From Flavobacterium limnophilum (GTDB lineage: Bacteria > Bacteroidota > Bacteroidia > Flavobacteriales > Flavobacteriaceae): a stretch of DNA of 64,000 nucleotides. The notes below the pieces were generated by a model. That model made no database searches and was not told the origin of the DNA. It saw only the letters and a list, made by a program, of their open reading frames with translations. The translations under genes were made by a program, and so were the position numbers. This document shows, piece after piece, positions 32,128 through 52,494 of the stretch. Numbering within the stretch: the first letter of the stretch is position 1; each line of letters starts with the position of its first letter. The DNA is taken from positions 806,001 to 870,000 of the forward strand of contig NZ_CP114289.2 in assembly GCF_027111315.2 (NCBI RefSeq), given 5' to 3'.

Positions 32128-32150
32128 ATAAGTATTAATACTTATATTTG
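32128..32150 (+). promoter_or_regulatory. nirB promoter with 18-bp palindrome
   Basis: ATAAGTATTAATACTTAT (32128-32145) is a perfect 18-bp palindrome with the AAGTA-N4-TACTT layout of Crp/Fnr sites. The TATATTTG -7 element (32143-32150) overlaps its right arm. A further TACGTA half-site is at 32117. The identical 18-mer is found at 51353-51370 before the porin-nrt genes, and close variants lie at 40423 and 52472. Confidence 0.75.
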
Positions 32151-32175
32151 CTTCGTAATACTTAATTAATGAGTT

Positions 32176-34683
32176 ATGATTAAAGTAATAGTAGTCGGAA
32201 ACGGCATGGTAGGTTACAAGTTTTGTGAAAAATTCATCACAAAAAAGGGAAGTGAAAATTATCAAATCACGGTCTTTGGAGAAGAGCCGAGACGCGCTTA
32301 TGACAGGGTGCACTTGAGCGAGTATTTTGCGGGTAAAACCGCTGATGACTTGTCGTTGTCTACATCAAATTGGTATGAAGAAAACAATATTATTTTAAAT
32401 ACTTCCGAGTTAATTACGGATATTAATAGAGAGCAAAAGACTGTTCATACTCATTTAGAAAAAACGCATAAGTACGATTACTTAGTTTTGGCAACCGGTT
32501 CTGCCGCTTTTGTTCCCCCTATCGAAGGTGTGGATAAAGAAGGGGTTTTTGTGTACAGAACCATCGAAGATCTAGATGCGATTATGGCTTACGCCAAAAA
32601 AATAAAACAAAAAGGGGCTACTGAAGCTGCCGTGTTGGGTGGAGGATTGTTAGGACTTGAGGCTGCCAAGGCTGTACGTGATTTAGGATTGAATCCCCAC
32701 GTGGTGGAATTTGCGCCTCGATTGATGCCAAGACAGTTGGATAAAGGAGCGAGTGACATGTTGCAATCCAAAATCGAGGAACTCAATATTGGTATCCATC
32801 TCAATAAATCAACTCAATATATTGCAGGAGAGAACGCTATTACGGGAATGATGTTCGAGGGCGATGATTTGCTCAAAGTGGATATGTTGGTGGTTTCTGC
32901 AGGGATTAAACCTCGTGATGAACTAGGAAGAGTTTCAGGATTGGAAGTAGGTGTTAGAGGAGGAGTTGTCGTAAACAACAAAATGCAAACATCCGATCCA
33001 AATATTTATGCGATTGGTGAAGTGGCACTTTACAACCACATGATTTATGGTTTGGTGGCTCCAGGATATGAAATGGCCGATGTGGCTGCCGAGCAGATTC
33101 TTGGCAACGAAAAGTTGATGAGGGAAACCATCGACATGTCGACCCAGTTGAAATTAATTGGTGTTGAGGTGGCGAGTTTTGGAGATCCATTTATTGAAAA
33201 TGACGAAGTAACCGCCATTGTTTATGAAAACAAATTCAGCGGAGTTTACAAAAGAATCAATGTTACCAAGGACGGAAAAACACTTTTGGGCGGAATATTG
33301 GTAGGTGATTCATCCGATTACAATGGATTGTTCCAAATTTACAGTAATGCCATGGCATTGCCGCCAAACCCGGAAGACTTGATTTTGGGTTCAAGAGGAG
33401 GGGAAGCTTCTTCTTTTGGAAGTGCTTCTGATTTGCCGGATTCTGCCGTAATTTGTTCTTGTGAAAATGTGACCAAAGGTTCTATTTGCTGTTCAATTAT
33501 TGACGGAACTGCCAATACATTTGGTGATGTGGTAAAACTAACCAAAGCTACTTCTGGTTGTGGAGGTTGTAAACCAATGGTGGTTGATTTGGTAAAAGCC
33601 GCCCAGAAATCAATTGGCAAGGAAGTGAAAGAAAGCATTTGCGAGCACTTTAATTATACCAGACAAGAATTATTTGATCTTGTAAAAATCAACAAATACA
33701 CTAATTTCTACGAAGTTGTCGATCATCACGGAAACGGCGATGGTTGCGAGGTTTGCAAGCCGGTCGTGGCTTCCATTTTTTCGAGTATTTACAACGACAC
33801 GGCCAACAAACACGTTACCACCCAAGACACAAACGACCGCTACTTGGCCAATATTCAACGAAACGGAACCTATTCTGTCGTGCCTAGAATTGCGGGTGGC
33901 GAGATTACTCCCGAGAAATTGATTGTAATCGGTGAAGTGGCCAAGCAATTTGATTTGTACACCAAAATTACGGGAGCGCAACGTGTCGATTTGTTTGGAG
34001 CCCAATTGGATGATTTGCCCAAAATTTGGGAAATACTAATCGAAAATGGTTTCGAAAGCGGCCACGCTTACGGAAAATCATTGAGAGCCGTAAAAAGTTG
34101 CGTGGGCAATGCTTGGTGCCGTTACGGAATGGACGACAGTACCACCTTGGCCATCGAATTGGAAAACCGTTACCGAGGAATTCGTTCTCCGCACAAATTA
34201 AAAGGAGGAGTTTCGGCTTGTATCAGGGAATGTGCCGAGGCCAGGGGAAAAGATTTTGGATTGATTGCCGTTGAAGGTGGCTGGAATCTTTACATCTGTG
34301 GAAACGGTGGTGCCAACCCAAAACACGCCGTACTTTTGGCCGAACAAATAGACAAAGAAACTGTTTTCAAATATATGGATCGTTTTCTGATGTATTACAT
34401 CCGCACTGCAGGACCATTGGTTAGAACTTCGACTTGGTTGGAAAAACTGGACGGAGGATTGGATTATCTAAAAGAAGTAATCATTCACGACCGTATCGGT
34501 ATTTGTGCCACTTTGGAAGCCGAAATGGAAGCCTTGGTTGGGACTTTTGAATGTGAGTGGAAACAAGTTCTTGAGAAACCAAGATTGATGAAACGTTTCA
34601 GCCACTTCGTGAATTCTGACGAGAAAGACGACAACATCGAATACGTGGGATTAAGAGACCAAAAAATGCCTAAACCTTGGTAA
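32176..34683 (+). CDS. nirB: assimilatory nitrite reductase large subunit
   Basis: This 835-residue NADH- or ferredoxin-linked siroheme nitrite reductase has the normal NirB order. The FAD/NAD domain comes first (VVGNGMVGYKFCEKF, VLGGGLLGLEAAKAV, NIYAIGEVA). A BFD-like [2Fe-2S] domain follows (CSCENVTKGSICC, CGGCKPM). Next are the ferredoxin-like half domain and the siroheme/[4Fe-4S] core with CVGNAWC and CIREC as the four cluster ligands. It reduces nitrite to ammonium with NirD. The promoter carries the nitrate-island palindrome. It is the first gene of nirB-nirD. Confidence 0.95.
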   Translation: MIKVIVVGNGMVGYKFCEKFITKKGSENYQITVFGEEPRRAYDRVHLSEYFAGKTADDLSLSTSNWYEENNIILNTSELITDINREQKTVHTHLEKTHKYDYLVLATGSAAFVPPIEGVDKEGVFVYRTIEDLDAIMAYAKKIKQKGATEAAVLGGGLLGLEAAKAVRDLGLNPHVVEFAPRLMPRQLDKGASDMLQSKIEELNIGIHLNKSTQYIAGENAITGMMFEGDDLLKVDMLVVSAGIKPRDELGRVSGLEVGVRGGVVVNNKMQTSDPNIYAIGEVALYNHMIYGLVAPGYEMADVAAEQILGNEKLMRETIDMSTQLKLIGVEVASFGDPFIENDEVTAIVYENKFSGVYKRINVTKDGKTLLGGILVGDSSDYNGLFQIYSNAMALPPNPEDLILGSRGGEASSFGSASDLPDSAVICSCENVTKGSICCSIIDGTANTFGDVVKLTKATSGCGGCKPMVVDLVKAAQKSIGKEVKESICEHFNYTRQELFDLVKINKYTNFYEVVDHHGNGDGCEVCKPVVASIFSSIYNDTANKHVTTQDTNDRYLANIQRNGTYSVVPRIAGGEITPEKLIVIGEVAKQFDLYTKITGAQRVDLFGAQLDDLPKIWEILIENGFESGHAYGKSLRAVKSCVGNAWCRYGMDDSTTLAIELENRYRGIRSPHKLKGGVSACIRECAEARGKDFGLIAVEGGWNLYICGNGGANPKHAVLLAEQIDKETVFKYMDRFLMYYIRTAGPLVRTSTWLEKLDGGLDYLKEVIIHDRIGICATLEAEMEALVGTFECEWKQVLEKPRLMKRFSHFVNSDEKDDNIEYVGLRDQKMPKPW

Positions 34684-34702
34684 TAAATTAATTAATAAAA
34701 TT

Positions 34703-34770
34703 CTTTCCAAAGCTACTTCAACACTTTTAGGATCTTTCGCAATCATAAAAAACGTTGAAGTAGGGGAAAG
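34703..34770 (+). other. long hairpin between nirB and nirD
   Basis: CTTTCC plus CTACTTCAAC (34703-34722) pairs with GTTGAAGTAG plus GGAAAG (34754-34770), with a small internal bulge and a 31-base loop. It fills most of the 105-bp gap. With no T-run it is more likely an mRNA processing or stability element than a terminator. Confidence 0.5.
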
Positions 34771-34788
34771 ATATCAAATACTTAAATC

Positions 34789-35166
34789 ATGGAAAACATA
34801 GTAAGCCAATACAAATCAGTAGCCGTAGAAGACGTAAATGTTTGGTTCAAAGCCGGAACCTTGAAAGACTTTCCCAGCAATAGGGGAGGTTGCATCAAAT
34901 ACAAAAACAAACAAATTGCCGTTTTCAACTTCGAAAGAAGAAACGAATGGTATGCCTGTCAAAATGCCTGTCCGCACAAAATGGAAATGGTTTTGTCTAG
35001 AGGAATGACCGGATCAGCCGATGGAGTGCCAAAAATTGCTTGTCCAATGCACAAAAAAACCTTCTCGCTTGTGGATGGATCAAACCTTAACGGAGAAGAT
35101 TATTCCATAGCCACTTATCCCGTGAAAGTGGTGGATGGAGAAGTATTCGTTGGCTTTTTGGAATAA
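34789..35166 (+). CDS. nirD: nitrite reductase small subunit
   Basis: This 125-residue Rieske-fold protein partners NirB. It keeps Rieske-type ligands in CPHKME and CPMHKKTF, whereas NirD proteins of several other bacteria have lost them. The start at 34789 follows the nirB stop by 105 bp, which is filled by a hairpin. It completes the siroheme nitrite reductase. Confidence 0.9.
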   Translation: MENIVSQYKSVAVEDVNVWFKAGTLKDFPSNRGGCIKYKNKQIAVFNFERRNEWYACQNACPHKMEMVLSRGMTGSADGVPKIACPMHKKTFSLVDGSNLNGEDYSIATYPVKVVDGEVFVGFLE

Positions 35167-35179
35167 ATGTGTATCTTTG
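35150..35179 (+). promoter_or_regulatory. promoter for the DUF4202 gene inside the nirD end
   Basis: TTG at 35150-35152 and TATCTTTG at 35172-35179 are separated by 19 bp, the expected Bacteroidota spacing. The ATG of the next gene is 22 bp further. The -33 box lies inside the last codons of nirD, so the DUF4202 gene can be expressed separately from nirBD. Confidence 0.55.
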
Positions 35180-36849: not shown

Positions 36850-38652
36850 ATGACTAGCAGCACGGCATCTGCCGATATTTCGTTCAAGAATTTAAGGCGA
36901 TTGTACATCTTCGCCCTCTTGACCATTGCGATTACGGTACTCTTGAGCCAGTTGTTGATACAACACAATCTTCACAGCCAGTTGAGCGATTCCCGAATCA
37001 TCAATATTTCGGGAAAACAAAGAATGGTCAGCCAGAAGTTGACCAAGGAAATCTTGATCTTGAATTTTATTGCCGATCCCACAAATAACAAAAAAGAAAT
37101 TGATCAGGCAAATGAAATTATCCAACTCTGGAAATTCAACCAATATGCCTTGGAAAATGGAAACGACAGCCTCGGTTTTCCAAAACAAAAAAGCAAGGCG
37201 CTTTCCGATTTGTTTGTGGCCATTAAGCCTAATTTTGACAATATTCTCAATGCGGCAACAGCATTTCTGGAGAATAAAAAATTGGGAATCAAGGAAAAAG
37301 AAAATCAGGAATTGGTTCAAATTATTCTAAAAAATGCTGCTGTTTTTCTGGAGAAAATGAATGATATTGTGGGGCAATACGACAAGGAAGCTCTCGAAAA
37401 GGTAACGCTGCAAAGCAAAACCGAGTACGGAATTCTGCTGTTTACCATGTTGGTTTTGTTGTTGGAATTCGTTTTTATTTTCAAGCCGACCAATAAAAAA
37501 GTGGAAAAACTCATCTCGAAACTTTTAGTCTCCGAGAAAAAAGCATTGAAACTGGCTCACGATACCGAAGTCATAAGTGAAGCAAAGGAAAACTCCGTCA
37601 AGGAATTGAAATCGCTTAATTATGCCATGGAAAACACGCTCCTTTATTGTCGTGTTGCGCCTGATGGTTCCTTGATTCACATTGGCGAGAAATTTGCCAA
37701 GCTGCTGTTGTACAATCCATTTCTTTCCGACAAAACTTTTTCGCAGGTGCTGACTCCAATCGAAAAGGAGCAAGTGGCCATTGACCGGATTATTACCCAA
37801 AGACAAAAAAGCGGTTGGCAGGGAGAACTCAATATTACCAATAGAAACGGGGATTTGATTTGGCTCGATATGTCTATGGTTCCCGTGACCATCAAAAAAG
37901 AGGAATCCGAGTTGTTGATAATTTGTTTTGACATCACCGAACGCAAGAAAGCCGAAGAAGAAGTCGAACGATTGAACAACGAAAATGTGGCCGACAAAAT
38001 CAATCAGCAAAAAGTGATTTCGAGCAAGATTGTCGAAAACCAGGAAAACGAACAAAACCGAATTGCCAAGGAAATCCACGACGGAATCGGGCAAATGCTT
38101 ACCGGGTTGAAATTCAGTCTCGAAAGTATCAATCTGGACGACAAGGAAAAGTCTGCCCAGAAAATAGAATACCTCAAAAAATTGGCTTTAGACATCATTA
38201 AAGGGGTAAGAACCGCCACTTTCAACCTGATGCCGCCAGAATTGAGCGATCACGGAATCGTTTCTTCTTTGTCAAAATTGACCCAGGAATTGTCAAAATT
38301 GACGGGCAAAAACATTCTTTTTTACAACAAGTCCAATTTCGACCAACGACTGGATTCATTGATTGAAATAAACATTTACAGGTTGACGCAGGAAGCCATC
38401 AACAATGCCATAAAATATGCCGATTCCACACATATTATCGTGCAACTTTCGCACAGCAACAATATTTTGAGCATCACCATCGACGATAACGGAAAAGGAT
38501 TTGACATTGCCGAAGCCGAGAAAAAAAGAAATAGCGAATCGGGGATGGGCTTGCTTTTCATGAAAGAAAGAATTCAATACATCAACGGGCGTGTTTTTAT
38601 CAATTCTATTCCCGGTGAAGGAACCCGAATTACCTTCAATATTCCCATCTAA
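36850..38652 (+). CDS. NarX-like sensor histidine kinase
   Basis: This 600-residue membrane sensor has TM1 (about 17-37) and TM2 (about 197-215) around a periplasmic helical domain of the PilJ/NarX type. The NISGKQRMVSQKL segment (residues 52-64) just after TM1 resembles the P-box by which NarX binds nitrate. A PAS domain (about 265-370) and coiled coil come next. The HisKA_3 block IAKEIHDGIGQMLTGLKF and a HATPase domain (NAIKYA, GKGFD) complete it. It pairs with the NarL/FixJ regulator 118 bp downstream. Sensing of nitrate or nitrite is inferred from the P-box likeness and the surrounding genes. Confidence 0.8.
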   Translation: MTSSTASADISFKNLRRLYIFALLTIAITVLLSQLLIQHNLHSQLSDSRIINISGKQRMVSQKLTKEILILNFIADPTNNKKEIDQANEIIQLWKFNQYALENGNDSLGFPKQKSKALSDLFVAIKPNFDNILNAATAFLENKKLGIKEKENQELVQIILKNAAVFLEKMNDIVGQYDKEALEKVTLQSKTEYGILLFTMLVLLLEFVFIFKPTNKKVEKLISKLLVSEKKALKLAHDTEVISEAKENSVKELKSLNYAMENTLLYCRVAPDGSLIHIGEKFAKLLLYNPFLSDKTFSQVLTPIEKEQVAIDRIITQRQKSGWQGELNITNRNGDLIWLDMSMVPVTIKKEESELLIICFDITERKKAEEEVERLNNENVADKINQQKVISSKIVENQENEQNRIAKEIHDGIGQMLTGLKFSLESINLDDKEKSAQKIEYLKKLALDIIKGVRTATFNLMPPELSDHGIVSSLSKLTQELSKLTGKNILFYNKSNFDQRLDSLIEINIYRLTQEAINNAIKYADSTHIIVQLSHSNNILSITIDDNGKGFDIAEAEKKRNSESGMGLLFMKERIQYINGRVFINSIPGEGTRITFNIPI

Positions 38653-38770
38653 AGAAATTAGGCAGAAAGTCAAGGCGAAAAAATCTTGTTATTATAATTG
38701 AAAAATACGTATATTAGCATAGTTTTTTATGTTTATATACGTAATAATTAAATTTAAAATTAAGTAAGTT

Positions 38771-39433
38771 ATGAGTGCTACTATTCGAGTTGTCTTGGCT
38801 GATGATCATGTATTTGTGAGAGACGGCATCAAATCATTATTGGAAAATGAAGCCAACATAGAAGTTGTTGGTGAAGCAACAGATGGTTTGGAAGCCCTGA
38901 AAATAGTAGCAACCGAACAACCCGACTTGTTGATTCTAGACATTCGTATGCCTAACTTGACAGGAATTGAAGTGGTCGAAAAACTGAGAAGCCAAAATAA
39001 TTTGGTTAAAATCGTGATGCTTTCGATGCACGAATCCGAAGAATATGTCTTGAAATCCATCAAAGCCGGTGCCGATGGATATCTTTTGAAAGGTTCCAGC
39101 AAAGAAGAATTTCTGAAAGCAGTTCATACCGTTGCCAATGGCGGAAAATACTTTAGTGGCGACATTTCATCCATATTAATTGGTCAACTCAGTAATCCTG
39201 GGGCTGCAATAGCGGAATCCAAACAATCCTTGGACGAGGACATGATGATTACCAAAAGAGAAAAAGAAATCTTGAAATTGTTGTTGTCCGGAAAAGGAAA
39301 CAAAGAAATTGCAGAAGCTTTGGATATCAGTAAAAGAACCGCAGAAGTGCATCGTTTTAATTTGATGAAAAAATTGAAAGTAAAAAACCTGATGGAACTT
39401 TCGAATAAGGCGACCGAGTATTCGCTTTTATAA
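38771..39433 (+). CDS. NarL/FixJ family response regulator
   Basis: This 220-residue protein has a receiver domain (1-125) with the acidic pair DD at 11-12, phosphoacceptor Asp57 in LLILDIRMP and the conserved lysine in LLKGSSK. A LuxR-type helix-turn-helix (about 155-215) follows, with TKREKEILKLLLSGKGNKEIA and VHRFNLMKKL. It is the partner of the upstream NarX-like kinase. The gap before it (38653-38770) has isolated TACGTA half-sites at 38706 and 38738, not in the palindromic spacing used elsewhere in the island. Confidence 0.88.
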   Translation: MSATIRVVLADDHVFVRDGIKSLLENEANIEVVGEATDGLEALKIVATEQPDLLILDIRMPNLTGIEVVEKLRSQNNLVKIVMLSMHESEEYVLKSIKAGADGYLLKGSSKEEFLKAVHTVANGGKYFSGDISSILIGQLSNPGAAIAESKQSLDEDMMITKREKEILKLLLSGKGNKEIAEALDISKRTAEVHRFNLMKKLKVKNLMELSNKATEYSLL

Positions 39434-40370: not shown

Positions 40371-40445
40371 TAAGTATAAATACGTAATTATTTTTAATTA
40401 TCTGCGAAAACACAGGTTTTTATTGAGTATTAGTACTTATTTTTG
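40371..40445 (+). promoter_or_regulatory. two palindromic sites and -7 element before second NarK
   Basis: TAAGTA-N4-TACGTA is at 40371-40386. A second, TTGAGTATTAGTACTTAT, is at 40423-40440 and matches the nirB palindrome at 15 of 18 positions. A TATTTTTG -7 element (40438-40445) overlaps the second site with the same offset as at nirB. The gene starts at 40465. The upstream site lies about 53 bp before the second. Confidence 0.65.
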
Positions 40446-40464
40446 TCAAAAAAATATAAGTATT

Positions 40465-41955
40465 ATGACAACTACAAACTCATTATCACAATCTCACAGA
40501 ATCTTATTTCTGAATACCCTTGCCTTTACGGTATGTTTTGCTTGCTGGACCCTAAATGGAGTGTTGGTTACCTTTTTGGTTGACAACGGAATTTTCAATT
40601 GGAGTGTTGTACAAGTAGGTTGGCTTTTGGGAATTCCAATTTTAACGGGTTCCATTATGCGTTTGCCAATAGGAATGCTTACCGATAAATATGGCGGAAA
40701 ATATGTTTTCTCTTTTTTATTGCTCCTTTGTTCCATTCCTTTGTTTTTACTTCCCTTGGCCGACAGCTTTTTTATGTTTGCGGTTTTAAGTTTCTTGTTT
40801 GGAATGGTGGGAACCAGCTTTGCCGTTGGTATTGGATTTACTTCTATTTGGTATCCAAAAGAATGGCAAGGTAGAGCCTTGGGAATTTTCGGAATGGGAA
40901 ATGCGGGTGCCGCTATTACAACCTTTATGGCACCTTCTTTATTGAATCATTTTTCGATAGAAGATCCAGAAAATGGTTGGAAAATATTGCCGGTTATATA
41001 TGGTATTGCATTGTTGGTAATTGGAGTTTTATTCTTGGTTTTTACCAAAAATAAAAAGATTGAAAACCACACCAAAACGGTTTCTCAAATGCTGGGTTCT
41101 CTTAAAAGTGTTCGAGTTTGGCGATTTGGAGCTTACTATTTCTTGGTATTTGGATGTTTCGTAGCCTATGCACAATGGTTATTGCCCAACTTTATGAATG
41201 TTTATCAAACGAGTTTGGTAATGGGAGGAATGTTTGCCACGATGTTTAGTTTGCCATCGGGAGTAATTCGTGCTTTTGGGGGTTATTTGTCCGATAAATT
41301 TGGAGCCAGAAAAGTAATGTATTGGGTTTTATCATCCTCGGTAATATTAAGTGCCTTGTTGATGGTGCCAAAAATGGACATCACGACGGCTGGTCCCGGT
41401 GTCATGGCAGGAAAAAAAGGAATAGTAACCGAAGTTTCCGAAACCAATGTAAAAGTGGGAGAGAAAGACTTTGCAATCAATAAAAAAGTAGAAAAACCTC
41501 TTGAAAATTCCATATTTCCAACCAAAAATTCTTGGCAAGAAGTAGTTGTCAAAGAAAACCAAGAAGTAAAGAAAAAAGAATTGTTGGCCAAAGGAGTTAC
41601 CGCCATTCATTTTAGTGCCAATATGTGGGTGTATTTAGTTTTGGTTATCCTGATTGGTATTTCTTGGGGAATCGGAAAAGCGGCAGTTTACAAACACATC
41701 CCGGAATATTTCCCGACCGAAGTGGGTGTAGTGGGAGGAATGGTAGGTATGATAGGTGGATTGGGAGGTTTCTTCGGGCCAATCATCTTTGGATATTTAT
41801 TGACCAGTACCGGTTTTTGGTCCAGTTCTTGGATATTCATACTGATTTTATCGTCTATTTGTTTGATTTGGATGCACAGAACAGTAACCAAAATTATGAA
41901 CGAAAAACAACCAGACTTGTCTAAAGTTATGGAGCGTCAATCTTCCAGAAAATAA
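40465..41955 (+). CDS. second NarK-type nitrate/nitrite transporter
   Basis: ATG 40465 gives 496 residues; the earlier TTG frame would begin within the operator. It is a twelve-helix major facilitator with NarK-family signatures (GWLLGIPILTGSIMRLPIG, IGFTSIWYPKEWQGRALG, GISWGIGKAAVYKHIP). An insert of about 75 residues lies between helices 9 and 10 on the predicted periplasmic side. It includes KGIVTEVSETNVKV and VKENQEVKKKELLAKG, which read like a small beta-rich, lipoyl-like fold. Nitrate uptake is the likely role, and the two operator sites upstream tie it to the nitrite and nitrate reductase genes. Confidence 0.87.
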   Translation: MTTTNSLSQSHRILFLNTLAFTVCFACWTLNGVLVTFLVDNGIFNWSVVQVGWLLGIPILTGSIMRLPIGMLTDKYGGKYVFSFLLLLCSIPLFLLPLADSFFMFAVLSFLFGMVGTSFAVGIGFTSIWYPKEWQGRALGIFGMGNAGAAITTFMAPSLLNHFSIEDPENGWKILPVIYGIALLVIGVLFLVFTKNKKIENHTKTVSQMLGSLKSVRVWRFGAYYFLVFGCFVAYAQWLLPNFMNVYQTSLVMGGMFATMFSLPSGVIRAFGGYLSDKFGARKVMYWVLSSSVILSALLMVPKMDITTAGPGVMAGKKGIVTEVSETNVKVGEKDFAINKKVEKPLENSIFPTKNSWQEVVVKENQEVKKKELLAKGVTAIHFSANMWVYLVLVILIGISWGIGKAAVYKHIPEYFPTEVGVVGGMVGMIGGLGGFFGPIIFGYLLTSTGFWSSSWIFILILSSICLIWMHRTVTKIMNEKQPDLSKVMERQSSRK

Positions 41956-43877: not shown

Positions 43878-44642
43878 ATGAAAAACAAGTATGTAGATTT
43901 TATTTCGGATGAACATTTTTTGGGCTGTGTGGCAAATCTTCACAAAGCATACTTGAAAGCTAAAAACAATATCACCAAGAAGAATTTTTACAGCAATAAA
44001 GTGGATACTATTAAACTCACTTTTGATGCAAAATTCAATGACATTGATGAAGAAACTTTGATTCAGGCTGAAATTTTAAGGCAAATTGACAAGTCCATAA
44101 ATAATTCTATTGGAACTTTTCACGAACAAATTTTGGGAGGAATTGTAGGTTTTGAAGTTGGCAATTTAAGTGGATTTGATATTAAAGCTAAAGATGATAC
44201 TTTGTTTGCTGATATTAAAAATAAGCATAATACAATGAATAGCAGCTCTGCCGAAGCTCTTTTTCAAAAGTTGTCTAGGTATGCAGATACTTATAAAAAA
44301 TCAAAATGTTATTGGGTGCAAATTTTGGCAAAAAGTAGCTTTTGTGAACTTTGGAAAGGCGAAATCAATGGTAAGGAATATAGTCATAGTAGAGTTTACA
44401 AAATTTCTGGAGACCAATTTTATGCTTTGCTTTCAGGAAAACACAATGCTCTTTTTCAATTATATAAAAACCTTCCAATTGCTGTAAATGATTATTTAAA
44501 TTCAATTGAAAAAAGTAAATCTGCTGAAGAAAATTCGGCTTTGGACGAAATCAAAGTTGAAACTGAAACTTCAAAAAGAACAATTTTAGACCAAATCACT
44601 TTTGAAAATTACAGTTACTATTTAGGTTTTGATAAATTGTAA
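43878..44642 (+). CDS. Eco47II family type II restriction endonuclease
   Basis: This 254-residue protein resembles the Eco47II family, whose type member cuts GGNCC. Supporting stretches are FDAKFNDIDEETLIQAEILRQ (residues about 50-70), FHEQILGGIVGF, and FDIKAKDDTLFADIKNKHN, which has the D-x-n-(D/E)xK form of a PD-(D/E)xK nuclease. Its 3' end overlaps the end of the convergent methyltransferase gene by 25 bp. The recognition site is inferred from the family and is not proven. Confidence 0.8.
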   Translation: MKNKYVDFISDEHFLGCVANLHKAYLKAKNNITKKNFYSNKVDTIKLTFDAKFNDIDEETLIQAEILRQIDKSINNSIGTFHEQILGGIVGFEVGNLSGFDIKAKDDTLFADIKNKHNTMNSSSAEALFQKLSRYADTYKKSKCYWVQILAKSSFCELWKGEINGKEYSHSRVYKISGDQFYALLSGKHNALFQLYKNLPIAVNDYLNSIEKSKSAEENSALDEIKVETETSKRTILDQITFENYSYYLGFDKL

Positions 44643-45859
44643 TAACTGTTTAAAAATTTTACAATTGAGTAGCCAACTTCTTTTCCTAAATTGACAGGCA
44701 CTGCATTTCCAATTTGTTTGTATTGTTGGGCGATGGAACCTTCAAATTTCCAATCGTCTGGAAAAGTTTGAATTCTCGCATATTCCCTTACGGTAAATGG
44801 TCGAGTTTCTTCGGGATGACATCTTTCGGTTTGTTTTTGTGCAGGACTACAAGTCAAGGTCAAACAAGGCTCATCCCAACCGATTCTTCTGGCAATTCCG
44901 GTTTTTCCTCCACCAAGATGGAAGCTTCCACCCATAAATTCTTTTTGAATTTCTAATGGTAAATCTCTCCAATATCCTTTTTGTGGAACTAAATCCAAAA
45001 CGTCAATTTTACTTTGAGGGTATTTCGAACCTTCTGATTTTGGTACATCGCAATCAAATAAATCTCCTTTTTTCAAAGCATCTTTAAGATTGTATATTTT
45101 TTTGTATGGTTTTGGATATTCATATTTTAAATCGATGTCTTTTCGAATTCCAACCAATATTAATCGTTCTCTTTTTTGGGGAACATTAAAATGAATGGCT
45201 TTTAAAACTTGAATTGGCACAACATTGTAACCTATTTCATCTAAAATGGAAATCATTCCTTGTAATGTTTTGCCGTTTTCGTGGCTTAACAAACCTCGAA
45301 CATTTTCCCCGATACAAATGGGTGGATTTACTTCTTTGACAGCTCTGGCAAATTCATAAAACAAGGTTCCTCTGGCATCGGCCAAACCTAATTTTTTCCC
45401 TGCATAACTGAACGCTTGACAAGGAAATCCTCCAGTTACGATATCAACTTTATTCTCGTATTCTGAAAAACTAAAAGATTTTATATCACCTTCCAGAACA
45501 TTCCAATTCGGCCTGTTTTTTCTTAAAGTCTGGCAAGCCCATTTGTCAATTTCGTTTAAAGCCACACATTTTAGTCCAGCTTTTTCCATTCCAACGGCTA
45601 ATCCTCCTGCTCCAGCAAATAATTCTAAAACGGTATATTCATTGTGGGGTTCAACATAATTTGAAATGGTTTCTTCAACATTATCGTTCTCTAAAAAATC
45701 CGCAAATAGAGTATCAACATCTGATTTTCGATAAACTCTATAATTGCTCATGGGTTCACGAACAGCAGTCAATTTGCCTTCTTTGTCCCAACGTCTTAAA
45801 GTTTCTTTGCTTTTTCCAATGTATTCAGAAGTTTCCGAAAGCGTCATATATTCACTCAT
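44618..45859 (-). CDS. C5 DNA methyltransferase with N-terminal helix-turn-helix
   Basis: ATG 45859 gives 413 residues. Residues 1-50 form a MerR/excisionase-type helix-turn-helix (MTLSETSEYIGKSKETLRRW, YRVYRKSDVD). The methyltransferase then shows its motifs in order: LELFAGAGGLAVGMEKAG (SAM binding), GGFPCQAFS (catalytic Cys), GENVRGL, PQKRERLI and QIGNAVPVNLG. It should protect DNA from the convergent Eco47II-like nuclease. The fused DNA-binding domain could make it autoregulatory, replacing a separate controller protein. A 9-bp inverted repeat upstream (45947-45970) is a candidate site. Confidence 0.88.
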   Translation of the reverse strand: MSEYMTLSETSEYIGKSKETLRRWDKEGKLTAVREPMSNYRVYRKSDVDTLFADFLENDNVEETISNYVEPHNEYTVLELFAGAGGLAVGMEKAGLKCVALNEIDKWACQTLRKNRPNWNVLEGDIKSFSFSEYENKVDIVTGGFPCQAFSYAGKKLGLADARGTLFYEFARAVKEVNPPICIGENVRGLLSHENGKTLQGMISILDEIGYNVVPIQVLKAIHFNVPQKRERLILVGIRKDIDLKYEYPKPYKKIYNLKDALKKGDLFDCDVPKSEGSKYPQSKIDVLDLVPQKGYWRDLPLEIQKEFMGGSFHLGGGKTGIARRIGWDEPCLTLTCSPAQKQTERCHPEETRPFTVREYARIQTFPDDWKFEGSIAQQYKQIGNAVPVNLGKEVGYSIVKFLNSYYNLSKPK

Positions 45860-45890
45860 AACCAAATTGTTTAACCTTACACAATGGTTA

Positions 45891-46192: not shown

Positions 46193-46747
46193 CTAAACTG
46201 TTTTCACCAATCTTATATCAACTTCCCTCTCCACATAATTCCATTCTTCGGCTTTTCTTAATGCATCCAAAAGTTCTTCGAAAGCATCGGCATCGGCAGG
46301 GGCATATTCGAACCAGGTCAGGAAGTCAAAAGGTTCGCCAATATCCCTGGAGTGGAACAGCTTCCGGGCAATGGCGGGCAGGTATTTCATTCCGGTTTGG
46401 GTGTGTCGGGATTTGTTTTCCATTATTTTCCGGCGTTCGTCTTGCGCCAAGTTCCACCAAGCTTCCGATTTCCGGATGGGAATAAAGGCGGCAAGAGTAG
46501 AATTTGCTCTGCCAAGATCTTGTTGAACGGCAACCAATTTCTCTTTGTCTTCCTTTTCGGTGTAGCGCAAATGGCTGACAATTCCTTTCAGTGTCCAAAT
46601 TCCTGTTTCAGTTTGTACCAATTCCTCTTTAGGAACTTTTGTTAGGTGTGAAACGGAGGCTAATGAATTGCCTTTGATTGTTGTCATTGATGAAACTTTC
46701 CAGTCGCCGACAGTATCTCCTACGAAATCAAAAATTGTATTTGTCAT
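46193..46747 (-). CDS. cld: chlorite dismutase family protein, short form
   Basis: This 184-residue cytoplasmic protein matches the short chlorite dismutase lineage in both length and motifs: AWWNLAQDERRKIMENKSRH, TGMKYLPAIARKLFHSRD, GEPFDFLTWFEYAP and EWNYVEREVDIRL. Such haem enzymes convert chlorite to chloride and oxygen. Nitrate reductases reduce chlorate to toxic chlorite, so a detoxifying role next to nitrate uptake genes is sensible. It is downstream of nrtD in the same direction, behind a strong hairpin, so its expression may be attenuated. It is distinct from the haem-synthesis HemQ branch by length and context, but that is an inference. Confidence 0.82.
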   Translation of the reverse strand: MTNTIFDFVGDTVGDWKVSSMTTIKGNSLASVSHLTKVPKEELVQTETGIWTLKGIVSHLRYTEKEDKEKLVAVQQDLGRANSTLAAFIPIRKSEAWWNLAQDERRKIMENKSRHTQTGMKYLPAIARKLFHSRDIGEPFDFLTWFEYAPADADAFEELLDALRKAEEWNYVEREVDIRLVKTV

Positions 46748-46843: not shown

Positions 46844-47650
46844 CTAACTTTTATAGACCATTCCCATATCTTCGATAGAGAATTTGTCGGTCAATAGGTG
46901 TAATAATCGATCTCTGAGTTCAATGTATTCAGGTAATTTCACGATTTCGATTTTGTTTCTGGGTCTTGGCAAATGCACATCTTCAATTTCCCTGATGGTG
47001 GAAGCGGGTCCATCATTCAAAACCACGATTCTGTCCGACAAAAACAAGGCTTCCTCGATGTCGTGCGTAATCATGATGATGGTTTTGTCCCTGTTATTAA
47101 GGTTCCATAATTTCAACACTTCGAGTTGCATCGAACTTTTGGTAAAAGCATCCAAGGCACCGAATGGTTCATCCAACAACAAAACTCCAGGATTGATGGC
47201 AAAAGCTCTGGCAATGGCGACTCTTTGTTTCATTCCGCCGGATAATTGTCCCGGTAATTTGTCTCTGTGTGTAAGTAGGTTCACCATTTTTAGATAATGA
47301 TCCACGATGTCGTGTTTTTCTTTCTTGGAACAATCCATTACGGAATCCACTGCCTGAAAAATGTTTTCATGTACCGACAACCAAGGTAACAAAGAGTAGT
47401 TTTGAAACACGATTCCCCTGTCTGGCCCTGGCCCTTTTATGGTTTTTCCGTCCAGTTCAACTGTTCCTCCCGTTGGTGTCAACATTCCGGCAATGGCATT
47501 CATGATGGTTGATTTTCCGCAACCGGAGTGACCTATTATGGAGATTATTTCCCCTTTTTTGATGGAAAGATTAATATTTCTTACTGCAGTGTATTTTCCT
47601 TTTGGAGTTGGAAAAGAGATTTCCAAGTTCTTGATTTCTAGATAGCTCAT
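46844..47650 (-). CDS. nrtD: nitrate ABC transporter ATP-binding protein
   Basis: This 268-residue ABC ATPase has Walker A GHSGCGKST, a Q-loop in VFQNYSLLPWLSV, the signature LSGGMKQR, Walker B VLLLDEP with the D-loop GALD, and the switch histidine in ITHDIEEA. It belongs to the nitrate/sulfonate/taurine group (NrtD, SsuB). The neighbouring NrtA-like binding protein and the nitrate island point to nitrate. It has no NrtC-type regulatory extension. Confidence 0.88.
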   Translation of the reverse strand: MSYLEIKNLEISFPTPKGKYTAVRNINLSIKKGEIISIIGHSGCGKSTIMNAIAGMLTPTGGTVELDGKTIKGPGPDRGIVFQNYSLLPWLSVHENIFQAVDSVMDCSKKEKHDIVDHYLKMVNLLTHRDKLPGQLSGGMKQRVAIARAFAINPGVLLLDEPFGALDAFTKSSMQLEVLKLWNLNNRDKTIIMITHDIEEALFLSDRIVVLNDGPASTIREIEDVHLPRPRNKIEIVKLPEYIELRDRLLHLLTDKFSIEDMGMVYKS

Positions 47651-47678
47651 AATCGTATGTTTTTTAAAATTTGTTTGG

Positions 47679-47780
47679 AGGTTTAAGAGTTTAAAGGTTT
47701 AAAAGTTTAAGTGTTTAGGTTTTTCTAATATTTTAAACCATTTTAAACGACTTTAAACTTTAAACAGCTTTAAGCACTTG
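47679..47780. repeat. array of GTTTAA repeats and their inverse between nrtB and nrtD
   Basis: The left part (47679-47718) has four or five spaced copies of (G/A)GTTTAA, and the right part (47731-47780) has five spaced copies of TTTAAAC or its close form. The two parts are inverted relative to each other around TTTTTCTAATA, so a long imperfect stem can form. It occupies most of the 136-bp gap within the operon. Confidence 0.6.
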
Positions 47781-47786
47781 AAAGAA

Positions 47787-48674
47787 TTAAGCTTTGTAAG
47801 CTACTTTGTTTTCGAAGTAAGTGAATATTCTATCAAAAAGTAATCCCACGATTCCAATGATTAGAATGGCCGATATTACTTTTTCTAGACTCAAAGCATT
47901 CCAACAGTCCCATACGAAGAACCCAATTCCAGCTCCACCAGACAACATTTCGCCTGCTACAATTACTAACCAAGCCACACTGATACTCAAACGCAATCCT
48001 GTAATGATGTGGGGCAAACTATACGGAATCAATATTTTGGTCAAATATCTCATATTAGAAAAACCAAAAGCTTTGGCCACGTTTTTATGGTCTTGCGGAA
48101 TGGATGCCACTCCAAAAGAAGTGTTGATAAGCGTTGACCACAACGAAGTAATGAAAACAATAAATATGGTTGCCAATCCTGTGTCTTTGAAAACTACCAA
48201 TCCAATTGGGAACCAAGCCAAAGGCGATACTGGTTTCAATAATTGCACGATTGGATAAAAAACTTGTTTACAAAAAGTGTTGGCTCCAATTAAAATTCCG
48301 ATTGGAATGGCTACTAACGAACCCAATGAAAACCCTAAAAGAACCGTTTTGATGGAAACGAATAATTGCAATCCAATTCCTTTGTCGTTTGGTCCATAAT
48401 CGTAGAAAGGGTCGCTCAACATTTCTTTCAATACGGTCAAAGTGGCTAATGGGCCAGGAAGTGCCTGCTCGGTATAAGCGCTCAACAAACTCCAAAATCC
48501 ACCGAAAGCTATCAAACCAATACCTGCAAACAAGATTGATTTTGATTTTTCAAAAATGCTTTCTAAAGCTATTTTTAATTTGTAATTTTCTTCTAAAAAA
48601 CTCTTTTTTGTTTCTGCTGCAACATCGATGGATGAATCTAATGCATCTAATGTTAGTGTGTTTTTATCTGACAT
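47787..48674 (-). CDS. nrtB: nitrate ABC transporter permease
   Basis: This 295-residue inner-membrane protein has about six helices and a cytoplasmic N-terminal tail of about 60 residues. The permease-ATPase contact loop is at AFGFSNMRYLTKILIPYSLP (EAA-like), typical of the NrtB/SsuC group. It forms the channel of the nitrate importer with NrtA and NrtD. It is separated from nrtA by a 107-bp gap that includes a hairpin. Confidence 0.88.
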   Translation of the reverse strand: MSDKNTLTLDALDSSIDVAAETKKSFLEENYKLKIALESIFEKSKSILFAGIGLIAFGGFWSLLSAYTEQALPGPLATLTVLKEMLSDPFYDYGPNDKGIGLQLFVSIKTVLLGFSLGSLVAIPIGILIGANTFCKQVFYPIVQLLKPVSPLAWFPIGLVVFKDTGLATIFIVFITSLWSTLINTSFGVASIPQDHKNVAKAFGFSNMRYLTKILIPYSLPHIITGLRLSISVAWLVIVAGEMLSGGAGIGFFVWDCWNALSLEKVISAILIIGIVGLLFDRIFTYFENKVAYKA

Positions 48675-48736
48675 GGCAATAAATTTTTAATTAGTTTTTA
48701 ATCTTTAATCTTTATTTTGTTTTGAAAATCAATCGC

Positions 48737-48763
48737 CATTCCTCCTCCATGTGAAGAGGAATG
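48737..48763 (-). other. hairpin between nrtA and nrtB
   Basis: CATTCCTC pairs with GAGGAATG around an 11-base loop, without a T-run. Such a structure often protects the upstream mRNA, giving more binding protein than permease. Confidence 0.5.
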
Positions 48764-48781
48764 CGACTGCTATTTCATCCT

Positions 48782-50005
48782 TTATTTTTTAACCACTTTT
48801 AAATATGCAGCTGGATTTGCTGGGTCGAAAACTGTTTTGTCCATGGTAAGTGAAAACGGTTTCATGTCGTCAGCAGGTACTTTTACTTTCATGCTTGCCG
48901 CTACTTGTTTGTATAAATCGGTAAGGATTAATTTGTCGGCAATAGCTTTGTAATCAGGAGCTGTTTTTAAGTATCCAAAACGTACGTATTGTGCCATGGC
49001 CCAAATTGCATGTGATTTGCGTGGGAAGTTTACCATACCGCCTTTATGGAAAGCCATTTGATCTCCTTTGTATATTTTCTTGCCTAAATTGCAACCTAGA
49101 TTGTATTCTCCGTTTAATCGATCTTCGATAACATCATTGTTGGCATTTACATAAGGTGCTTTACCAATAATATCAGCCGTTTTTTTACGATTGGCAGGAA
49201 CATCTAGCCAGATACAAGCTTCCATTATAGCTTTCATTACTTTAATTAAATCTGCTTTTCTTTGTACACTGAAATCTTTGTTGACTACCAACGCTTTTTC
49301 AGGGTGATCTTTCCAAATATCTTGAGATGCAATTTGGGTAAATCCTATTTTTTGCATTGCAGCTACTCCTCCCCAAGGTTCACCAACACAAAATCCGTCC
49401 ATATTGCCTACTTTCATGTTGGCAACCATTTGAGGAGGTGGGATAGTGATTATTTTAGAGGTTTTTTGATTGATGTTTGCCAATGCCAACCAGTTGCGCA
49501 ACCACAAATCGTGTGTGCCACCCGGGAAAGTCATGGCGAATGTTACTTCTTTTTCGGCTTTTAGTTTAGAAGCTACAACAGGTCCTGCTTTAGCCATATC
49601 TTTGAAACCTACTTTTCCACAAAAATCATTTGAAAGTGATATGGCTTGTCCGTTTACGTTCAACATCATAGCAATTTTCATTTCAGATCCTGCTTTTCCT
49701 CCAACGCCAGTGTACACTGAAAAAGGCATGGAATACAAACAATGTGCTCCGTCCAATTCGCCAGTCAAGATTTTATCTCTCACATTGGCCCAAGATGATT
49801 CTTTGGTAACAATTACTTCTACACCGTATTTTTTGAATAATCCCAATTCTTTTGCCATAACGATTGGTGAACAATCGGTTAGTGGAATAAATCCCAGTTT
49901 TATAGGCTCTTGAGCACTAACAGTTGAAAAAATAGAGCTGATAGTTATCAACATAACAAAAATTGATTTTGTTATTGCTTTTTGGTTTGATTTTAATGTT
50001 TTCAT
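48782..50005 (-). CDS. nrtA: nitrate-binding periplasmic protein
   Basis: This 407-residue protein has a signal peptide ending TVSAQ without a lipobox. The NrtA/CmpA-like fold is shown by LGFIPLTDCSPIVMAKELG, the LTGELDGAHCLYSMP block and the GNMDGFCVGEPWGG motif near the ligand site. It captures nitrate and delivers it to NrtB. It is the second gene after the porin, 26 bp downstream. Bicarbonate is the alternative ligand in the family, but all neighbours are nitrate genes. Confidence 0.88.
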   Translation of the reverse strand: MKTLKSNQKAITKSIFVMLITISSIFSTVSAQEPIKLGFIPLTDCSPIVMAKELGLFKKYGVEVIVTKESSWANVRDKILTGELDGAHCLYSMPFSVYTGVGGKAGSEMKIAMMLNVNGQAISLSNDFCGKVGFKDMAKAGPVVASKLKAEKEVTFAMTFPGGTHDLWLRNWLALANINQKTSKIITIPPPQMVANMKVGNMDGFCVGEPWGGVAAMQKIGFTQIASQDIWKDHPEKALVVNKDFSVQRKADLIKVMKAIMEACIWLDVPANRKKTADIIGKAPYVNANNDVIEDRLNGEYNLGCNLGKKIYKGDQMAFHKGGMVNFPRKSHAIWAMAQYVRFGYLKTAPDYKAIADKLILTDLYKQVAASMKVKVPADDMKPFSLTMDKTVFDPANPAAYLKVVKK

Positions 50006-50031
50006 ATCTAATTGTTTAATAAATTATTTAA

Positions 50032-51300
50032 TTATTTTTTTGTTGAAAAAACTTGAGGGTTGATGTTTACCATCAAATAAGCCCAGTTGTTTGTGGCGTC
50101 GTTTAGTCCTGTTCCACCTTTTAAAACAACCATTGAGTCCGAAGCAAACATTTGAGAATATCCAGCAATTAATGTAATGTCTTTGTATACTTTGTAAACC
50201 GCCGTTACGTCAACCTCTGTTCCTAGGTATGAATCTTGTTCTACACCACCAGAAACGATTTTGTTGGGAGCTGAAAAAAGGTGAGGAGCAATGGACAAAT
50301 TCACTTTTTTGATAGGAAAATCTAGTTTTAATGTAAGATCATTTAAACCTACTGAATTGGCGTGATTGCCCACGTAGAAATAATCCATAAAACCGTTAAA
50401 TGCGTGGTTTGTACCAAATAAAGGGGCGAAAGATTTCACCACTGTAGATGTTGAATTTTGATCTTTACCAGACAAGAATTCATATCCTAAAGTCGCTTTA
50501 AATTTTGGAGTAAATGCATATCCTAAATTTACAGCTGCTTCCCAAGCCGATACGGTATTGTTGCCTATTTTACCGGTTTGGCCATATAAGCTATAATCAA
50601 TAGCAAGTTTTTTCCCGTCATATTTAGCATAGGTTCCGAAAGTTTGGAAATAATTTAATCCTATTTCTGTTGGGGTTTTTAAGAATTCTCTTCCCACGTT
50701 CATGGCCAATAAACTAAAATTTAGTTTTTTGATATTGGAATGGTACCAAGCATATTGCATGTCCTTAAAAATATCTGTTGTATAAGGTGTTGCAGGGGCT
50801 ACTTTGGCTTCGGAATTGGCATTCAATGCAAATCCTAAATCCAATTGGCTTTTAGAGCCTTTGTATTTGATTAAAGCAGCATCAAAACTACGACCTTGTG
50901 TTGCCCAATCCAATCCGCCTATTATTCTTTGGTTGTCGTAAGATAATACTTGACGACCTAATTTTGTGCTCCATTTCTCTGCGAATTTGTATTCTGCATA
51001 CGCTTCAAAAGCAGCTACTCCATTTTTGCTAGAAAGTGTCGTGGTACTTACATCTCCCCAAGTGCTGATGTTTTGAAGTGAAAGTTTTACACTTAATTTG
51101 CCATCAGTGTAATTTAAATTTACTCTAGAACGATTTCCTATGAAAGAGGTGTGTTCTGTAGTTGGAGTTATTAAAGTGCCAAATCCATTGGTGTATTCAT
51201 AACGAGGTCTAATTTGAATATCAGTTTTAAATTCCTGCGCAAATGCATTTCCCGTTACCAGTCCTAATAATGATAGATAAATTGTTTTTGTGATTTTCAT
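50032..51300 (-). CDS. outer-membrane porin of the nitrate transport operon
   Basis: This 422-residue protein has a signal peptide ending AFAQ and alternating amphipathic strands throughout (for example FIGNRSRVNLNYTDGKLSVK, WSTKLGRQVLSYDNQRIIGG), consistent with an alginate-export-like beta-barrel. It is the first gene of the porin-nrtA-nrtB-nrtD series. A passive route for nitrate or another anion through the outer membrane is inferred. The promoter contains the perfect 18-bp palindrome shared with nirB. Confidence 0.78.
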   Translation of the reverse strand: MKITKTIYLSLLGLVTGNAFAQEFKTDIQIRPRYEYTNGFGTLITPTTEHTSFIGNRSRVNLNYTDGKLSVKLSLQNISTWGDVSTTTLSSKNGVAAFEAYAEYKFAEKWSTKLGRQVLSYDNQRIIGGLDWATQGRSFDAALIKYKGSKSQLDLGFALNANSEAKVAPATPYTTDIFKDMQYAWYHSNIKKLNFSLLAMNVGREFLKTPTEIGLNYFQTFGTYAKYDGKKLAIDYSLYGQTGKIGNNTVSAWEAAVNLGYAFTPKFKATLGYEFLSGKDQNSTSTVVKSFAPLFGTNHAFNGFMDYFYVGNHANSVGLNDLTLKLDFPIKKVNLSIAPHLFSAPNKIVSGGVEQDSYLGTEVDVTAVYKVYKDITLIAGYSQMFASDSMVVLKGGTGLNDATNNWAYLMVNINPQVFSTKK

Positions 51301-51343
51301 AGTAGTTTGTTTTTGTTTGTAATTGTTTTGATTAAGTACATTG

Positions 51344-51370
51344 CAAACTTATATAAGTATTAATACTTAT
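51344..51370 (-). promoter_or_regulatory. porin-nrt promoter with 18-bp palindrome
   Basis: ATAAGTATTAATACTTAT at 51353-51370 is identical to the nirB site. On the minus strand a TAAGTTTG -7 box (51351-51344) follows it. The -7 is nine bases past the palindrome here against five at nirB. The remaining gap to the Crp/Fnr stop (51371-51682) holds a lone TACGTA at 51514 and no gene. Confidence 0.75.
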
Positions 51371-51682
51371 AAACTACGTAAAATGCAGATGAAAATAGCT
51401 TTTTAACCCAAAAAATAGCGTGATTAAGTCTGTTTATTTTCTGCTTTTTGACAGGAAATTCAAATTAACTCAATTATATCAAGGGGTTACGTTGTGGTGG
51501 TTTTAGTAAAAAATACGTATAAATGATTTTTTTTGCTCTAAGTAAGTTTAGTTTTTGTCTTTTAAATACTTGAAAAAAGAAAATTTGTTCAAAAAGAAGC
51601 CAAAAAAAATAGCCTTCAGAGATGAAGACTACGTGTTATTTAGAGGAAAAAGTGAATGCGAAGAGAAGTTTTATTGCAAGAA

Positions 51683-52381
51683 TTACTTATGTTCCCTGAT
51701 TTCGGCTTTTAATTTATCGACATTGACCAAGCCAATTTTTTTGCCCACGGTTTTGATAAGGGCTTCTTTTTTCAGACTTGAAATCACTCTAATCACCTGT
51801 TCATCGGTGGTTCCGGCGAAATCGGCTATTTCTTTTCGGGATAAATCCAGCTCTATGACACCGTTTGTTTGTCCAAATTTTCGATGGATGTATAATAAGG
51901 TGTCGATTACTCTTTCTCGAACATTCATTTGGGCAATTTTTCGAATGTTGTTCTCGCTTTTATTCAATTCTTCGGCATAAAAAAGCATTAAATCATAGGT
52001 GAATTCGGGAATGTTGTGAAGAATTTCGAGCATGTCTTCGTTGCTGAAATTGCACAAAATAGTATCTTCAAGAGCATAAGCGCCAATGAGGTAGCGCTTG
52101 CTGGTGCCAAAACCCCTGAAGCCAACAGTGTCGCCGTTTTTGGTCAATCGAACGATTTGTTCTTTGCCGTGAATGCCTGTTTTTACGGTCTTTACCTTTC
52201 CTTTGTAGATAAAATAGAGGCCTTGTATTGGCGCACCTTCAATGATGAATTGTTGGGTTTTTTTGCAAACAAAACTGCGTTTTTTATCAATGTAATTTTT
52301 CATTTGCTCCAAGTGAATGTGTTTTTTGATAAAACAATTTTCATTGGTACAACTTGTGCAATTGGCTAGTTCTTCTTTCAT
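51683..52381 (-). CDS. Crp/Fnr family regulator with N-terminal cysteines
   Basis: ATG 52381 gives 232 residues (a TTG two codons earlier is possible). A cyclic-nucleotide-binding-type fold (about 30-150) is followed by a winged helix with LSRKEIADFAGTTDEQVIRV. The N-terminus has NCTSCTNENC, three cysteines in a C-x2-C-x4-C pattern, and further cysteines at SFVCKK and ILCNF. Fnr binds an oxygen-labile [4Fe-4S] cluster with a similar set, so redox sensing is possible. The recognition helix has Glu and Arg (EQVIR) at the positions that read DNA in Crp and Fnr. Its location, divergent from the fused nitrate reductase with shared operator half-sites, makes it the prime candidate to bind the island palindromes. 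Confidence 0.88.
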   Translation of the reverse strand: MKEELANCTSCTNENCFIKKHIHLEQMKNYIDKKRSFVCKKTQQFIIEGAPIQGLYFIYKGKVKTVKTGIHGKEQIVRLTKNGDTVGFRGFGTSKRYLIGAYALEDTILCNFSNEDMLEILHNIPEFTYDLMLFYAEELNKSENNIRKIAQMNVRERVIDTLLYIHRKFGQTNGVIELDLSRKEIADFAGTTDEQVIRVISSLKKEALIKTVGKKIGLVNVDKLKAEIREHK

Positions 52382-52435
52382 CGACAAAATCTTTAATTAG
52401 TACTGACTGAATTTACTCCAGGAATTTATTTTGAA

Positions 52436-52494
52436 CAAATTTATAAAAAAATATTCGATTCATACGTATTTATACGTAAAAATACTTATTTTTA
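52436..52494. promoter_or_regulatory. divergent control region of Crp/Fnr and fused nitrate reductase
   Basis: Three half-sites are spaced exactly 10 bp: TACGTA at 52463, TACGTA at 52473 and TACTTA at 52483. They form two overlapping Fnr-like sites. On the plus side TATTTTTA (52487-52494) overlaps the right site as a -7 box, with the same offset as at nirB and the second narK. On the minus side TAAATTTG (52443-52436) would be the -7 of the regulator gene, placing the left site near -39. Confidence 0.65.

Follow-up and report, generated by a model that had tools for sequence, protein, structure and literature searches.

A conserved palindromic box at nitrate and nitrite genes of Flavobacterium, a candidate operator for a NarL/FixJ-family regulator

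The window analysed here is a stretch of 64,000 nucleotides from the genome of Flavobacterium limnophilum (contig NZ_CP114289.2, positions 806,001 to 870,000), and its subject is a short palindrome, the box, which recurs ahead of nitrate and nitrite genes and is a candidate operator for a response regulator encoded among them. The first of these genes is nirB, which encodes the large subunit of nitrite reductase (32176..34683, plus strand). It is followed on the same strand by a nirD-like small-subunit gene (34789..35166; named by eye and by position, and in the same order in relatives), a NarX-like sensor kinase gene (36850..38652) encoding a PilJ-type sensor with P-box, PAS, HisKA_3 and HATPase_c domains, and the gene for a NarL/FixJ-family response regulator (38771..39433), the proposed reader of the box. 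Further along the plus strand, narK2 (40465..41955) encodes a NarK-type major facilitator superfamily transporter that scores 188 bits against TIGR00886 (cut-off 311.7). The minus strand carries the porin-nrtA-nrtB-nrtC nitrate uptake operon (46844..51300), where the nrt genes were named by eye and the porin matches Pfam Alginate_exp, and the gene for a Crp/Fnr-type regulator with an N-terminal C-x2-C-x4-C (51683..52381; Crp below). The set ends with nasA (52555..56067, plus strand), a fused nitrate reductase with molybdopterin oxidoreductase, pyridine-nucleotide reductase and BFD domains.

The box is a 16-mer, TAMGTA-N4-TACKTA (TA[A/C]GTA-N4-TAC[G/T]TA), and its 18-nucleotide form ATAAGTA-TTAA-TACTTAT is a 7-4-7 inverted repeat. 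An earlier note on this DNA reported a perfect 18-mer before nirB (32128-32145) and before the porin-nrt operon (51353-51370), variants agreeing at 15 of 18 positions (40423-40440 and 52472-52489) and a further site at 40371-40386; all were found as described. Five matches with at most three mismatches occur in the window, where 0.07 are expected; the match at 43339, away from any nitrate gene, is probably due to chance. At nirB the box (32129..32144) shares two bases with the -7 element TATATTTG (32143..32150, plus strand), and is accompanied by an upstream half-site TACGTA (32117..32122) and a downstream half-site TACTTA (32159..32164), both on the plus strand. The narK2 promoter carries box 1 (40371..40386) and a degenerate box 2 (40424..40439) that overlaps the -7 element TATTTTTG (40438..40445, plus strand). 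The porin-nrt box (51354..51369) stands beside the -7 element TAAGTTTG (51344..51351, minus strand). Overlooked earlier were two overlapping palindromes with one half-site in common at nasA (52463..52478 and 52473..52488), where the -7 element TATTTTTA (52487..52494, plus strand) has a final A instead of G and is TATTTTTG in many relatives. The NarX/NarL-like pair (36850-39433) was likewise passed over, as was a second class of palindrome, CTGC-N6-ACAG, at narK2 (40402..40415) and upstream of the porin box (51441..51454).

Nine sites in the 4.51-Mb genome match TAMGTANNNNTACKTA without mismatch. Five of them lie in the window promoters (one each at nirB, narK2 and the porin, and the overlapping two at nasA), and six of the nine fall in the nitrate cluster. 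One site within the nirB coding sequence is probably a coding coincidence, and another lies ~100 bp ahead of a gene for uroporphyrinogen-III methyltransferase, which serves the synthesis of siroheme, the cofactor of NirB. Perfect boxes were also seen at genome positions 3543234 and 4084397 (L017 and L018, 3001-3016), near genes named by eye as sucA and sdhC.

The nitrate/nitrite regulon proposed in the earlier note is strongly supported, in that the box is kept at orthologous promoters across the genus and the family. A set of 80 loci, nearly all titled Flavobacterium, was found by searching with the Crp/Fnr-type protein and taken with at most 10 kb per side. Its 247 boxes compare with 0.3 predicted by first-order shuffling. 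The box precedes 75/75 nasA and 54/55 narK2 genes with visible starts in this set, and the porin-nrt box is likewise conserved in Flavobacterium loci. One count of the same set gave no box at 28 porin and 27 nrtA genes, because the gene matched as porin there is another porin copy and because the porin precedes nrtA. From the genomes with kinase and nirB in a family sample of 299, 40 regions and then 20 regions from 18 further genomes were fetched. The 40 other-genus loci contain 111 boxes (0.2 expected). The strict box is present at 74 of 75 nirB promoters, comprising 17/17 in Flavobacterium and 57/58 in other genera (51 other genera). These comparisons took narK2 and left out the first narK gene (25153-26817); the named Flavobacterium loci and the G-numbered loci partly overlap.

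In the family sample, 67 of the 299 genomes have the kinase, and exactly these have nirB. A search of 62 kinase-positive genomes found the regulator in every one (weakest E 1.3e-63); of 16 kinase-negative controls, one (G004) has it at E <= 1e-45, and no box occurs in the 20 kb around that match. Its receiver domain (PF00072, 1.3e-30) and GerE/LuxR helix-turn-helix domain (PF00196, 1.4e-19) place it in the NarL/FixJ family; it falls below the NarL equivalog cut-off (161.1 bits, cut-off 250). Among solved structures, the closest to its DNA-binding domain are EsrB, FixJ and SsrB. The helix S[KR]RTxExHR[FY]NLM is present in 109/109 distinct orthologs and ISKRTAEVHRFNLMKK in 94/109; the counterpart in FixJ is ISPRTVEVHRANVM, and the recognition helix is FixJ-like. 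As to published sites, which are quoted here and below from the accessible portions of the papers cited, selection experiments with FixJ gave GTAGTTTCCC and GTAMGTAG, and the FixJ site at fixK is TAAGTAATTTCCCTTA (PMC4999443). SsrB reads an 18-bp palindrome in a 7-4-7 arrangement (PMC2837388). The box agrees with the FixJ half-site and length (PMC4999443) and with the SsrB layout (PMC2837388), as far as these are described there. In other genera, the box also precedes the regulator's own gene at 26 of 42 loci.

The sensor region of the kinase matches PF13675 (PilJ/NarX-type) at residues 41-143 with E 1.2e-10. A P-box with a conserved arginine, in the form QRM or QRA, is present in 116/117 distinct kinases matching from near the N-terminus, and is missing from five others that match only in part (L201, L203-L206). 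At the P-box there is a weak match (E 0.25) to PDB 6gcv, a chemotaxis transducer which we take to be a nitrate receptor. As a separate observation, kinase relatives in six loci (L201, L203-L207) have the P-box sensor absent or replaced, while regulator, nirB and box are kept (five boxes strict, one with a mismatch); the sensor domain seems to have been lost or exchanged there. A relic of the system was seen in G057 (L113), where nirB, narK2 and nasA were not found, the regulator is present, and the kinase is shortened and has lysine in place of the P-box arginine.

From these comparisons we consider it very probable that the box is the operator of the NarL/FixJ-family regulator at 38771-39433, acting under the NarX-like kinase and controlling the nitrate and nitrite genes, with the Crp/Fnr-type protein as a second input. 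The argument draws on the conserved boxes and their register, the co-occurrence, the absence of Crp from box-bearing genomes, and the likeness of the helix to FixJ and EsrB. Binding of the box by the regulator, nitrate as the signal and the direction of control are, by contrast, inferred. The kinase (36850-38652), through its NarX/PilJ-type domain and P-box, would detect nitrate or nitrite and govern phosphorylation of the regulator, a dimer of which would bind the box and set transcription of the genes for nitrate uptake, nitrate reductase and nitrite reductase. Outside Flavobacterium the regulator's gene itself would often be a further target, and genes for siroheme and molybdenum cofactor are predicted targets in some genomes. 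Where present, the Crp/Fnr-type protein encoded next to nasA would provide its input, probably through CTGC-N6-GCAG near -41.5 at narK.

Several observations weigh against this assignment. The 16-mer shows no genome-wide excess (27 sites with at most one mismatch, versus 79 for the reversed control), and the 18-mer with at most three mismatches occurs 19 times genome-wide versus 14 for the control; the signal is the clustering of boxes at nitrate genes, not their genome-wide frequency. The sites adjacent to sucA and sdhC could be chance, or may be targets in the tricarboxylic acid cycle. Only 6 of 18 nitrate-type cobA genes have the box, and the other cobA paralog has it in 0 of 12 (L220-L249). 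None of 16 regulator promoters in Flavobacterium carries the box, nor does the one in the window, and autoregulation is therefore not a Flavobacterium feature. At one nirB promoter (L202) the box is recognised only if a mismatch is allowed. The kinase lies far below the curated cut-offs for NarQ (69.5 bits, cut-off 553) and NarX (59.1 bits, cut-off 578); it is predicted to work like these proteins but is not classed as either. Kinase, regulator, nirB and box often share one neighbourhood, and part of the co-occurrence could reflect joint inheritance; in several genera the regulator gene lies apart from the kinase. The related genomes are not independent of one another, nor are the counts independent events. 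The reader may also be a different regulator common to all nirB genomes.

The earlier note's identical offset in three of four promoters holds, the distance from palindrome centre to last -7 base being 13.5 bp at nirB, narK and nasA; at the porin this distance is 17.5 bp. In the text available for PMC9723704, TAnnTTTG, the sigma-A box of Flavobacterium, is placed at -12 to -5, and the consensus for sigma-A comprises no more than the -7 box; all box-centre positions given here were inferred by setting the -7 box at -12 to -5. The nirB box is centred at -18.5 at 70 of 76 sites if TAnnATTG is allowed, and in 62 of 75 promoters with strict TAnnTTTG. The nasA boxes are centred at ~-28.5 and ~-18.5, the porin box at -22.5 (19/20), narK box 1 at ~-71.5, and the box at the regulator gene of other genera at ~-27.5. 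In aligned nirB promoters an extra half-site lies 13 bp before the palindrome in 14/70, and a downstream half-site, as at 32159..32164, is present in 30/70. The nasA promoters inspected mostly have a double palindrome with a common half-site.

These positions do not decide the direction of control. No enrichment of a -33 TTG at a spacing of 16-23 was found at nirB (9 seen, 10.2 expected), nasA (0; 11.1 and 13.3 expected), the regulator gene (0; 2.1 expected) or the porin (2; 2.7 expected). With a sigma-A consensus limited to the -7 box (PMC9723704, accessible text), this result does not discriminate between an activator and a repressor. An argument for activation from helical phase is not clean, with centres at -18.5, -22.5, -27.5 and -28.5, and if the nirB box were a class II site at -41.5, transcription would begin downstream of the start codon. 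Sites within the core promoter would suit a repressor or an unusual activator, and the earlier note's remark to that effect is fair. A more specific suggestion, which we put forward tentatively on promoter layout, is that the regulator switches promoters from within the core element: the box would be merged with the sigma-A -7 box, the dimer would be an activator replacing upstream promoter contacts, and it would also act from -71.5, behind the narK Crp/Fnr box. Such a core-merged activator layout is, to our knowledge, unlike the known arrangements of NarL, FixJ and SsrB.

The second palindrome, scored as CTGC-N6-GCAG with one mismatch allowed and counted over distinct narK2 promoters, is present in 66 of 67 Crp-positive and 0 of 3 Crp-negative Flavobacterium promoters, which represent few independent losses of Crp. 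In random windows it occurs in 13 of 4040. At narK2 the element in the window (40402..40415) is centred at ~-41.5; across promoters, 65/66 place it 36.5 bp away from where the -7 box ends (centre -41.5), and in 64/66 its distance from TAMGTA box 1 is 30.0 bp. Of 30 porin loci, 24 have it 84-85 bp upstream of the TAMGTA box. For other genera, 6 of 15 loci showed TGC-N6-GCA in the vicinity of nrt (~2 expected), in four cases 95-96 bp from the box. The element is a candidate, and likely, site of the Crp/Fnr-type protein. Counting against that assignment, 6 of 30 nrt promoters have no element at the usual place, the Crp-positive locus L124 has none at narK, and a published rule linking E181 to A fits poorly, the element having C at that place (PMC1274295, as far as its accessible text goes). 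The same misfit counts in favour of the possible, though less likely, explanation that the narK copy is the terminator of the upstream gene, as do its short GC stem between A and T runs and its position close behind the regulator gene in many species. However, the narK copy stands at a nearly constant distance from the -7 box, the element is absent from the three Crp-negative genomes, the porin copy keeps its spacing hundreds of bases behind crp, and in the window the element is present although a different gene lies upstream.

The earlier note took the Crp/Fnr-type gene (51683-52381) as the implied reader of the box, and this part of its proposal is not supported. Among 121 genomes of the genus, a Crp ortholog (at least 70% identity) was found in 36, the sensor kinase in 40 and nirB in 39; all 36 Crp-positive genomes have the kinase, and the ortholog is absent in 3 of the 39 with nirB. 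In these three (G008, G102, G103) the kinase and the regulator are present together with nirB, narK and nasA, each of the last three with its box; they may represent a single loss. G057, the relic genome described above, is a fourth without the Crp ortholog. The genome-wide Crp search in other genera covered the first 40 genomes, not the 18 further ones. The ortholog (54-64%) is present in 29 of the 40 and missing in 11, all of which keep the nirB box. Thus none of the 14 Crp-negative genomes with nirB (three of Flavobacterium and 11 from other genera) lacks the strict nirB box, while all nirB-positive genomes that were examined have the NarX/NarL-like pair. That Crp reads the TAMGTA box is improbable, and it was rejected as reader on the persistence of the nirB box in Crp-negative genomes. 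Crp/Fnr boxes have a G five bases from the centre, as does the TAMGTA box, and the position of the gene between two box-bearing promoters, its presence in 36 of 39 nirB-positive Flavobacterium genomes and the E and R retained in the helix of its product would also favour Crp. However, the retained glutamate is linked in the accessible text of PMC1274295 to A in position four counted from the centre, which is T in the box, and the palindrome that tracks the Crp gene is CTGC-N6-GCAG. The protein falls below the curated Fnr cut-off (80 bits, cut-off 228). It is probably a second regulator, and an unlikely reader of the TAMGTA box. Two nitrate-linked copies of the Crp/Fnr gene were seen in G025 (contigs C37 and C66, 78% and 70% identity).

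Reading of the box by another Crp/Fnr paralog, or by both regulators jointly, appears slightly more improbable still. Several Crp/Fnr-type genes are present in each of seven genomes listed, but the Crp ortholog's helix is matched by none of the 26 readable paralog helices in them; 13 weaker candidates, with an unreadable helix or not fetched, were left out of this comparison. Genomes without nirB, too, contain the closest paralog (~30% identical), and in three of the 11 other-genus genomes (G262, G381, G330), which have the box, a Crp relative is lacking at E <= 1e-25. That the box is due to chance, or is simply promoter sequence of an AT-rich genome, has negligible probability and is refuted by clustering and conservation: the -7 element has bases in common with the right arm and the motif has no genome-wide excess, but the counts far exceed expectation in the window (0.07 expected) and in the 80 loci (247 versus 0.3), and box 1 of narK stands at a good distance upstream from the -7 element.

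The proposed pairing of the NarX-like kinase with the NarL/FixJ-family regulator has likenesses to several known systems. NarX-NarL and NarQ-NarP of enterobacteria have a PilJ/P-box kinase, a NarL-family regulator, nitrate and nitrite reductase targets, and a likely counterpart to their Crp/Fnr co-regulator here. NarL and NarP operators are TACYYMT heptamers, whereas here TAMGTA halves are spaced by 4, stand at assimilatory genes and often overlap the -7 element. A NarL reading of the box in the 7-2-7 arrangement described for NarP (PMC1802743, accessible portion) was dropped, the half-sites not matching the heptamer in that arrangement. FixL-FixJ of rhizobia has a similar recognition helix, and the FixJ sites GTAMGTAG and TAAGTAATTTCCCTTA, so far as the accessible text gives them, match the half-site and spacing; that system has an oxygen-sensing kinase and nitrogen-fixation targets, while the sensor here is of the nitrate type and the genes are nitrate genes. 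SsrB and EsrB have the same type of DNA-binding domain, and the 18-bp 7-4-7 palindrome of SsrB, as excerpted, was compared by layout, not by half-site sequence. Their targets and signals differ from those of the nitrate system here. In the E. coli nirB promoter, FNR is located near -41.5 and NarL near -69.5. The narK2 promoter resembles it, with a proposed Crp/Fnr box near -41.5 and the regulator box near -71.5, but has other sequences, belongs to another phylum and has the Bacteroidota -7 box. HcpR and other Crp/Fnr regulators responding to nitrogen oxides also belong to the Crp/Fnr family and lie near nitrogen genes; the HcpR2 box before hcp is GTAACnnnnGTTAC (PMC1274295, available text). 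Unlike HcpR, the protein here has a cysteine-rich N-terminus and is placed with nitrate uptake and nitrate reductase genes. An NtcA-type site, GTA-N8-TAC, was tried as a model for the box and dropped for its wrong spacing.

An open-access literature search aimed at such a system showed none among the papers listed. The kind of system is known, namely a NarX/NarL-like nitrate system; new in the predicted one are a NarX-type sensor combined with a FixJ/SsrB-type operator, assimilatory genes as targets, and an operator placed on the -7 box. For a large part of the Flavobacteriaceae (67/299 sampled genomes have the kinase and nirB), a regulator with its operator and regulon is proposed for the use of nitrate and nitrite. 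If true, the pairing of a NarX-type sensor with a FixJ-type operator would imply evolutionary recombination between types of sensor and types of operator. The promoter layout offers a direct test of NarL-family action from an operator that is merged into the -7 box of Bacteroidota promoters, and the box can be used as an annotation rule for nitrate genes.

Further boxes come from loci picked around the nitrate cluster and are thus not an unbiased regulon. Fifty-eight boxes do not adjoin query genes, 18 of them without a suitable open reading frame and 40 before genes. Of these 40, 20 precede a group of NarK-family transporters (one member scanned), 7 a group that by eye is porin-like, 6 genes resembling cobA, 2 moeA (of MoeA type but under the equivalog cut-off) and 5 single genes. 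Among the single genes, two are globin-like by eye (L213 14164 and L218 3271, the former without an NCBIfam match), and for these a link to nitric-oxide detoxification is possible.

Within the window, the gene directly downstream of nasA (56142-57569) encodes a nitrite/sulfite-reductase half-domain with a C-terminal rubredoxin domain and occupies the same place in many relatives. A chlorite-dismutase-family protein (46193-46747) adjoins the nrt operon, and a C5 cytosine methylase with an N-terminal MerR-like helix-turn-helix (44618-45865) is encoded between narK2 and that operon.

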